From contig NZ_JAASAF010000005.1 of assembly GCF_012726195.1 (NCBI RefSeq), forward strand, positions 62,001-126,000: 64,000 nucleotides of DNA, written 5' to 3'. The DNA comes from Rhodococcus sp. HNM0563 (GTDB taxonomy: Bacteria > Actinomycetota > Actinomycetes > Mycobacteriales > Mycobacteriaceae). This document shows, piece after piece, positions 15,107 through 17,667 of the stretch. The notes under the pieces are model-generated. The model saw only the letters and a list, made by a program, of their open reading frames with translations, ran no database searches and had not been told where the DNA came from. The first letter of the stretch is position 1. Each line of letters opens with the position of its first letter. The translations under genes were made by a program, and so were the position numbers.

Positions 15107-15412
15107 GTGTCCCCCCGTCGTCTGATGACGATCATCATGACGGGGTGTGCCTGATCTGTCAGGAGAATGGGCCTCAGGCTCACAACAGTCGATGAGAAAT
15201 CCGATACTCCCTCATACTCACTGATATCTCCTCCGACCTCCTTCGCCCCCGAGGTGACCACGGAATACCGCAGCACCCTGCAAAACGAAAGTTCACCTCC
15301 CCCGGCCGTCGGACCGGTTCCGCTCCCCGCACCATCGCAGAAACAACCCTCGTGCATCCCGGGACACCCCGTCACACACACCCCAGGCGCCGCGGTGCGG
15401 GCCGAACAGAAC
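15107..15412. other. Intergenic region upstream of the SGNH gene
   Basis: About 306 bases between the SGNH hydrolase start and the first plausible start of the TnpB-like remnant. It must carry the SGNH promoter, but no convincing -10/-35 pair is obvious. A small CCTGA/TCAGG inverted repeat occurs near 15148-15161. No RNA gene or insertion-sequence end was identified. Confidence 0.4.
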
Positions 15413-16800
15413 ATGTCGGTACCCCGGCGTTATCGTCACCGCCGAGACCGCACACCCACATCACCGGGCGATGACGAGAAGGGACGCGATGGCCGGCACC
15501 GACCCGACCGAGCGACGCCGGTCCGCGTTCACCACCAGCCCCATACGGCGGTCGACGACACCACCGGCAACCCGATCGGGCTCGACGACATCGACAGCCG
15601 GGGCCGGGCACTACCGACACACGGACACGTCGTCGCCGCCCGCCTCGGCTGGACCCTCACCTACCCCGACGGGTGTTATGTGCCATCGCGGGTGTCGCGG
15701 GTGGTCACCGCACAGGCCACCGCGACGCTACGGACCTTGACCTACCGCGACACCGCGATCGCGTCGCTCTCGGCCCGCTTCGATCCCGCCACCGGACACA
15801 TCGCCCCGCCGGCGAGCGGGGAGGCGTACGTGCCGCCGGGGTTCGCCCGGGGTGTACGACGGCAACTGGTCGCCCGTACCCGCAGGCGCGAGGAGGTGAG
15901 CTCGGGTACAGCAACCGACCCTGACCCTCGACGGGCGGGGGCTGTTGCTGCGGTGCGCGGCCACCGAAGTCGTCCCCGCCGGTGACCTGAGCAGTGCCAC
16001 GGTGGGGGTGGACTGGTCACCGGCCACGCTCGGGGCCGCCGCGATCGTCACCGGCGGCGGCGACGGCCTGGTGTCCGATTTTCGGGGTTACACCTACGAC
16101 GACCGCGGCCTCGGCATCAAAGTCGCCCGCCTGCAGACCGAAGGCCAATTCCTGCACCGCAAGGCAGCCCGCCTACGCCAACTGGCCGAGAACGCGCCAC
16201 CGCAGGCACGAGTGGAACTCGAAGCGAAGATCGCGGTGCTCGACGCCAATCGCACCGCGGTCGGTGCCAAGCGGGGGGAAGATCAATCGGGAACTCGCGT
16301 TTCATTTCGCGCGTCAGGTCACCGACTACGCGGTCGCCGCCGATACGACAGTGATCGCGGTCGAAGATCTCGCGAGTCTCGAACCGCGTGGGCGTGGCCG
16401 GGTGAACAACACTCGGGCTGCGCAGTCCGCGCGCCGAAAGGCCGCCGATGCATTGGCGTACACCGCCGCGGGGGTGGGTGTGGTGGCGGTGACGGTGCCG
16501 GCGAAAGGGTCGTCGGCGTGGTGTCCGGGCTGCAACGAGGAACTGGCACGGCCGGGTGGCTATCACCATGCGTGGTGTGAATCCTGCCGACTGGGTGGGG
16601 ATCGTGATCATGTGGCGGCGGTGAACCTTGCCAAACGCGCCCTCCTCGGCCGAGGGGCTGCGGTCCGGACTCGTGCCGGTGGTCGGGAGATCCGCACCAC
16701 CATGCATGCCCCGGTGCACAAGTGCCGGGACAAGACCGGCCCGACTCCGGGGAGGCCGCGGCATCGCAGGATGTTTCGGGTAGCCGTGAGGGACGTGGGT
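15413..16800 (+). pseudogene. TnpB-like RuvC nuclease (IS200/IS605-IS607 OrfB type), broken by two frameshifts
   Basis: Three successive reading frames encode one TnpB-like protein. The first ends around 15899-15906 (…TRRREEVSS), the second runs to the G6 run at 16273-16278 and the third carries the C-terminus. Each change is repaired by removing one G (in TCGGGTA at 15902-15908, then in the G6 run). The joined protein keeps RuvC-I (VGVDWSPATLG, Asp codon 16011), RuvC-II (VIAVEDLASL, Glu codon 16363), a CPGC/CESC zinc ribbon (Cys codons 16522, 16531, 16576, 16585) and RuvC-III (DRDHVAAVN, Asp codon 16606). Start and end are approximate: the third frame has no stop before it enters the reverse strand of the thioesterase gene. 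No TnpA or serine recombinase is adjacent. The G-run errors could also be sequencing errors. Confidence 0.75.
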
Positions 16801-16839
16801 CTGGACTGCCTGGCATGTTGGTGGCAGGAAGTATCAGGT

Positions 16840-17667
16840 TTACGTAGACGCTTTGAAATACACCAATTGATGGGCGGTGGCGAGCAATGTGTCGCTCGAG
16901 CCCCACAGATGCGCGGTCTGATCGAAGTAGTTCTGACCGAACCGGTGGCTGCGGGCTGTGGCGAGGATCGGATGATCCGACTGGGCTTCGATCTCGGCGG
17001 CGTCCGCGTGGAAATAGATCGTCAGCGTCACCGTGCCTGCGGGGAGCGCGTGGCCGCGGCGCAGGAACGCGCGGGGATAGAACACGTCGCACAGGGCGGT
17101 CAGAGAGGTGAAGTCGAGTGGGCGCGCGGGCTCGTCACGGACCCAGAGGGTGGAGGTGGAATCGGGGTGCGGGGCGGCGTCGGCGCCGGGAATCGGGCCC
17201 TCGACGAACCGCATCTCGTAGTTCTTGCCCCACGCAACGAAATCGGGGAAGGGGGTGGCCGCCACCTCGTCCGCAGGTGGTGCGGTGGGCGCGGCGAGCT
17301 CGGTCGATGCCCAGGTGTCCTTACGATTGCCGAACACCGCGGTAGCGGTGGTCGTGACAGACCCGCCCTGGGTCAGCTCGACCACCCAGTGCTGGCTCGA
17401 GCGATTGGTGCGCACCGGCCGGGCGACAACCTCGAACTCCCCGTACGCGATCGCCGCGGCGAAGTTGACCGTCAGTGACAGCGGTGTCCCGAGAACCTCG
17501 GGATGAAGCCGGACGGCCTGCAGCATCGTGGCGGCCGTGACACCGCCGAAAGGGCCGACCATGTTCGCGTACGCGGGGTGGGTGTTTCCGGTATAACGAC
17601 CCGCATCGATGGCGGTGAGCTCTACAGCGGCGTCGAAGACGTGGACGGCGTTCTCGGTTTCGGGCAT
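16840..17667 (-). CDS. Acyl-CoA thioesterase, TesB-like double hotdog
   Basis: 275 residues. The N-terminal hotdog contains YANMVGPFGGVTAATMLQAV near 33-52, typical of the 4HBT_3/TesB-like family, and the second hotdog ends with FGQNYFDQTAHLWGSSDTLLATAHQ, whose Asp/Gln/Ser pattern fits the active-site region. It probably hydrolyses fatty acyl-CoA in the cytoplasm. The 3' end abuts the TnpB-like remnant, whose last frame runs antisense into it. Confidence 0.82.
   Translation of the reverse strand: MPETENAVHVFDAAVELTAIDAGRYTGNTHPAYANMVGPFGGVTAATMLQAVRLHPEVLGTPLSLTVNFAAAIAYGEFEVVARPVRTNRSSQHWVVELTQGGSVTTTATAVFGNRKDTWASTELAAPTAPPADEVAATPFPDFVAWGKNYEMRFVEGPIPGADAAPHPDSTSTLWVRDEPARPLDFTSLTALCDVFYPRAFLRRGHALPAGTVTLTIYFHADAAEIEAQSDHPILATARSHRFGQNYFDQTAHLWGSSDTLLATAHQLVYFKAST

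Follow-up and report, generated by a model that had tools for sequence, protein, structure and literature searches.

A broken tnpB gene in Rhodococcus sp. HNM0563 and the IS607-type insertion sequence from which it appears to derive

The window analysed here, a 64,000-nucleotide stretch of a contig of Rhodococcus sp. HNM0563, carries at positions 15413-16800 consecutive TnpB-like pieces that are spread over three reading frames. We conclude that this locus is almost certainly a dead copy of an insertion sequence of the IS607 family (Table 1). The identification of the pieces as a TnpB-like gene, made earlier from the sequence alone, held up. The open reading frame at 15994-17478, which contains the third piece, matches PF07282 (Cas12f1-like TNB) at 35.5 bits, with a cut-off of 26.3; the frames holding the first two pieces match no Pfam family. 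At E <= 1e-4, pieces 1, 2 and 3 find matches in 22, 24 and 25, respectively, of the 25 family loci described below. The start codon of homologous tnpB genes corresponds to the ATG at 15489, and not to 15413. As the same reading had it, the catalytic residues are kept: the pieces retain an Asp codon at 16011-16013, a Glu codon at 16363-16365 and an Asp codon at 16606-16608, together with four Cys codons starting at 16522, 16531, 16576 and 16585, which we take, from their motifs, to be the RuvC residues and the zinc ribbon. All of these residues are invariant in 16 intact homologues.

Table 1. Features of the remnant in window coordinates
Feature	Position	Strand	Evidence
Whole IS607-type remnant, left end to right end	15176..16852	+	points where copies stop matching; insert-free site in four genus genomes
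Left end and non-coding lead, without tblastn-detectable tnpA	15176..15488	+	left end starts AGGCTCACAAC, as in L022, L042 and L043
tnpB start region (homologous ATG); frame differs from next piece	15489..15542	+	1-bp deficit at 15539 relative to six of six copies
tnpB N-terminal piece; scar 15596/15597 (105 bp) inside, scar 15911/15912 (~239 bp) at end	15543..15911	+	
tnpB middle piece; RuvC-I Asp at 16011-16013, 6-bp deletion at 15990	15912..16272	+	
G6 run, one base longer than in six aligned copies; frame change	16273..16278	+	
tnpB C-terminal piece with RuvC-II Glu, zinc-ribbon Cys and RuvC-III Asp; stops at 112-bp scar	16279..16766	+	PF07282, 35.5 bits
Right end, keeping the terminal hairpin region; constrained block upstream shortened by about two thirds	16767..16852	+	alignment, consensus fold, synonymous constraint

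Lesions and the age of the decay

Lesions were called from an alignment of the window element with six related copies (L022, L042, L043, L020, L019 and L032). Relative to all six, the window lacks 105 bp at 15596/15597, 6 bp at 15990 and 112 bp at 16766/16767, and it is 1 bp short at 15539, which puts the homologous start codon in another frame. A further 237-243 bp (about 239 bp) are missing at 15911/15912; five of the six copies have this stretch, and the sixth, L042, which is itself damaged, has 136 bp at the equivalent site. The G6 run is one base longer in the window than in any of the six copies, and the frame changes there. The three large deletions together amount to about 460 bp. The sequence-only reading had described a gene that was whole except for two single-base shifts, each an extra G. 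The one in the G6 run stands; the one in TCGGGTA does not, the frame change there being the scar of the ~239-bp deletion. Nor is the gene otherwise whole: it has deletions of 105, ~239, 112 and 6 bp, and one base is missing close to the start codon.

On an intact homologue of 612 amino acids (P0004), the large deletions correspond to the loss of roughly residues 37-71, 192-271 and 558-595. The window tnpB lacks about 35 codons and then about 80 more before RuvC-I, and what is left does not encode a complete protein. The second of these losses, due to the ~239-bp deletion, lies ahead of the first catalytic Asp and covers strands predicted to precede it in an AlphaFold model of an intact homologue, a model of low overall confidence (mean pLDDT 56.7, pTM 0.39). 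The stretch corresponding to the 112-bp deletion is bounded in L022 by direct copies of CCGCGGCATCG, an arrangement that fits a repeat-mediated deletion; L020, L043 and L042 show a weaker repeat.

Two readings under which the gene would be intact after all have to be weighed against these losses. A functional TnpB might be decoded through programmed +1 frameshifting in the G runs, an idea favoured by the retained catalytic residues and by the G6 run, which could plausibly be slippery; but 35 codons near the N terminus and some 80 ahead of RuvC-I are missing, the start codon is in a further frame again, and the 16 homologues, although selected as open, cross the same place in a single frame. 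Alternatively, an intact gene might have been corrupted by homopolymer or assembly errors. Homopolymer errors do not make losses of 105, 239 and 112 bp, and the direct repeats at the ends of the 112-bp stretch in L022 also speak against this reading, although the draft state of the assembly (53 contigs) and the dN/dS of 0.28 (see below) count in its favour. Since about 460 bp are missing, neither mechanism, both of which had been proposed from the sequence, explains the window copy; we regard sequencing or assembly error as very unlikely and frameshift decoding as extremely so.

Compared piece by piece with its closest intact homologue, the window copy has a dN/dS of 0.281, just above the range of 0.205-0.278 obtained when that homologue is compared with the 15 others; the window copy against those 15 gives 0.179-0.273. 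At the 181 family-invariant sites that the window pieces cover there are 11 changes. When the 16 intact copies were left out in turn, they showed 0-15 changes with a mean of 4.9, and two of the 16 exceeded 11. Another 46 of the 227 invariant positions fall outside the window pieces, mostly owing to the deletions. These values indicate that most of the divergence arose under selection and that the breakage is recent on the scale of substitutions, in agreement with the very recent decay suggested earlier. Taken by themselves, selected-looking substitutions imply either that the loss is recent or that some part could still serve something. The window copy is a recent fossil: frameshifting cannot make a whole nuclease of it, and two base errors do not suffice to account for its state.

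Ends, insertion site and transposase partner

Matching between copies ends at two shared points, which define the limits of the remnant in the window. Of the 25 loci, 24 carry the right-end motif where it is expected; L042 lacks it. Left-end readings come from 15 copies, namely the window, L042, nine loci found by a pattern (24 loci were searched, and 15 gave no clear match), L157 and L158-L160. The first ~51 bp of the window left end are 79% identical to those of L157, a copy that bears tnpA. Thirteen of the 15 copies have an A immediately before the left end, which gives AGG at the boundary; L020 has C there and L023 has G. As read from these 15 copies, the left end is preceded by a preferred A and by no fixed target of 4-5 nt.

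Matches to the flanks of the insertion were found in 16 (downstream) and 15 (upstream) of 18 genomes of the genus, its own included, and four of these genomes were fetched. In all four (G010, G011, G016 and G008, the last compared by eye) a GDSL lipase gene and a thioesterase gene adjoin without an insert. Comparison of the insertion with the insert-free sites revealed no duplication, and GC is found at the left end, the right end and the target in the one insertion compared; GC is the likely core dinucleotide, at a presumed core position. IS607 elements are described as having neither inverted repeats nor target duplications in an excerpt of PMC6188088, and as inserting by means of matching dinucleotides in an excerpt of PMC10711439, and the absence of a duplication and the shared GC fit that mode. 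The insertion substitutes for the end of the thioesterase gene: the acyl-CoA thioesterase gene at 16840-17667 on the minus strand ends inside the transposon right end and is two residues longer than in relatives. Eight neighbouring ORFs were scanned. Two match no family, and six match ordinary ones (an MFS/Atg22-type transporter, a lipase, a thioesterase, an alpha/beta hydrolase, and TetR and AraC regulators).

The window copy is the only member of the family in its genome (5.54 Mb in 53 contigs). A single copy, no detectable tnpA and substitutions that look selected are features that a stand-alone guide-RNA nuclease or regulator, domesticated and kept by the host, would also present, and such a role had been raised in the sequence-only reading. 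No sign of domestication was found at the window locus. Transposon ends flank it, the same site is without the insert in four relatives, a relative carries an IS607-type tnpA, and much of the probable guide scaffold is deleted; the chance that the remnant is a domesticated gene is practically negligible. A different possibility is that the remnant is a non-autonomous element that can still be mobilised in trans, since both ends are kept and a derivative of ~253 bp with little more than the ends (L160) exists in G010. This we consider unlikely: a related TnpA is absent from the genome and was matched in two of the 18 genus genomes, one of the two matches being weak and partial with a stop, and the element is present once.

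L160 (G010 contig 236, about 460-712 after reversing) is MITE-like, and consists of the left end, the last ~30 codons of tnpB and the right end. A left-end fragment of ~72 bp on contig 2 of G005 (L161) is apparently a relic within another reading frame; G005 has no match to tnpB piece 3.

The assignment of the element to the IS607 type rests on its relative L157 in genome G014. Directly upstream of the same tnpB, L157 has a gene whose product matches the IS607 TnpA equivalog NF033518 at 118.7 bits (cut-off 110) and also exceeds the cut-offs of PF00239 (69.3 bits) and HTH_17 (36.6 bits). This serine-recombinase TnpA with an N-terminal HTH, lying beside the same tnpB, makes the element IS607-type. 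The L157 contig stops inside tnpB, and no single copy has been seen with tnpA and tnpB both complete. In the window copy, tblastn with the L157 TnpA detected no tnpA, which bears out the earlier remark that no transposase partner is adjacent.

The same search, run without composition adjustment, found traces of tnpA 5' of tnpB in 17 of the 25 loci at E <= 0.001. The longest stop-free match among the 17 spans 142 of 218 residues (L040), and the others are shorter, stopped or frame-split. Across L019-L043, examined up to about 2 kb 5' of tnpB, the traceable tnpA is damaged in 17 of 17 cases, and 16 of the 25 loci have an open tnpB. From these comparisons tnpB seems to survive longer than tnpA in the family copies examined.

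An IS200/IS605 origin was considered and dropped. A Y1_Tnp match is absent from four of the 13 family-bearing genomes searched, some of which are drafts, the left end has no fixed target, and the sole partner with an unbroken frame is the serine TnpA of L157, not a Y1 transposase. Six other genes in the genome of the window exceed the PF07282 cut-off, with 74-94 bits (one each on contigs C53, C4, C12 and C51, and two on C1); two of these higher-scoring genes have a Y1 transposase match at a distance of about 1 kb. They are a different kind of TnpB from that in the window.

Intact homologues and the 3' end of tnpB

Relatives had been suggested as a source of intact copies, and they supplied them. 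Scanning 84,980 species genomes with a pattern-based method yielded the 25 loci, which by title belong to Rhodococcus, Prescottella, Tomitella and Nocardia. In 16 of them tnpB is an open frame of 555-820 amino acids from stop to stop, two of these (L025 and L035) ending about 50 codons early; five are interrupted within tnpB (L026, L033, L034, L042 and L043), and in four tnpB is cut by the end of a contig (L030, L031, L037 and L039). A search of 298 genomes of the order at the strict threshold of E 1e-60 found matches in two, and piece 3 was matched in five of the 18 genus genomes at E <= 1e-5, the genome of the window being included in both counts. Piece 3 had no match in 50,697 phage records and matches in eight of 72,556 plasmid records, none of which covers 80% of the query.

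The intact homologues are divergent. The guided_TnpB model NF040570 matches all 16, with a best E of 3.2e-11; the one member for which a score was shown reaches 24.8 bits, where the cut-off is 100, and scores 26.7 bits for PF07282, whose cut-off is 26.3. A Foldseek search with the low-confidence model of an intact homologue placed the TnpB of ISFba1 (8iaz) third, at E 3.1e-6 and a TM-score of 0.19, which we take as support only. A single-sequence search of the PDB returned one meaningless match (E 0.99), and a profile search gave weak matches, the best to Cas12g (E 0.007) and the others mostly to Cas12 types, with some unrelated proteins. PADLOC likewise gave mostly Cas12 models, the best being Cas12f, and all were weak.

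The 3' end of the intact tnpB genes is unusually constrained. Synonymous variation at residues 569-609 is 0.04-0.10 in windows of 12 columns, compared with 0.33 overall and about 0.20 in the next lowest stretches listed (16 intact sequences, two of which end before the block). The block corresponds to about 6523-6645 of L022, and its DNA hardly varies among 23 other aligned right ends. Low synonymous variation combined with invariance of the DNA is the mark expected of an RNA that overlaps the reading frame, and the block is probably the guide-RNA scaffold. A consensus fold of the right ends predicts a terminal hairpin and a longer-range helix, which would form the right-end RNA structure of the family; covariation in this fold is weak (term -0.38; two-sided change in seven of 57 pairs). 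At the gathering threshold Rfam has no family at the locus and reports three tRNAs only in the window. Twenty-seven of the 41 constrained residues, about two thirds, fall in the 112-bp deletion of the window copy, which keeps the terminal hairpin region.

A history that would account for the window locus begins with an element, of a kind whose components occur in Rhodococcus relatives, that encoded a serine-recombinase TnpA, a TnpB of ~600 amino acids and, at its right end, an RNA sharing sequence with the 3' end of tnpB. This element would have entered the thioesterase gene at its end, presumably at a GC core dinucleotide. The window copy itself would then have lost tnpA, rather than having arrived without it, and several deletions and two one-base frame changes would have followed, in an order that we can only suppose. 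The deletions would have wrecked the nuclease and most of the putative guide-RNA scaffold.

Comparison with known elements

The family shares with the IS607 elements ISXfa1 and ISFba1, as described in parts of PMC10711439 and PMC11061315, a serine TnpA 5' of TnpB, observed here in L157. Other features in common with TnpB-bearing IS607 elements are a left end without a fixed target of 4-5 nt, a conserved right end, the RuvC Asp-Glu-Asp and the zinc ribbon. The TAMs of the IS607 group are given in an excerpt of PMC11061315 as AGGAG or GAGGG motifs, with AG-rich TAMs beside putative left ends, and the AGG at the left-end boundary of the present family (A in 13 of 15 copies) resembles them. Two features differ from the account in that excerpt: IS607-group TnpBs average 390 amino acids there, whereas the intact homologues here have ~600, and the reRNA of the group is independent of the coding sequence, whereas the constrained right-end block of this family overlaps the tnpB frame. 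In having a TnpB nuclease, the family is also like IS200/IS605, in which, according to the same excerpt, the guide RNA overlaps the tnpB coding sequence; unlike IS200/IS605, it has no Y1 partner that we could see, four of the 13 genomes being without any Y1_Tnp, and its left end, in 15 copies, lacks a fixed target.

We lean, with modest confidence, towards regarding the intact relatives as a separate subfamily of large (~600 amino acids) actinobacterial IS607 TnpBs whose guide RNA would overlap the 3' end of tnpB and in which, among the copies compared, tnpB lasts longer than tnpA, a hint that the nuclease gene is selected in its own right; the window copy would be a fossil of this group. Among open-licence literature we found no paper that joins TnpB, IS607 and Rhodococcus. 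The window copy itself is of little significance, being a dead insertion by which the neighbouring thioesterase gains two residues. The mildly interesting part is its intact relatives, a divergent group of IS607 TnpBs in which the reading frame appears to contain a guide-RNA block; they could serve to test both RNA-guided nuclease activity and the persistence of tnpB once tnpA has decayed.
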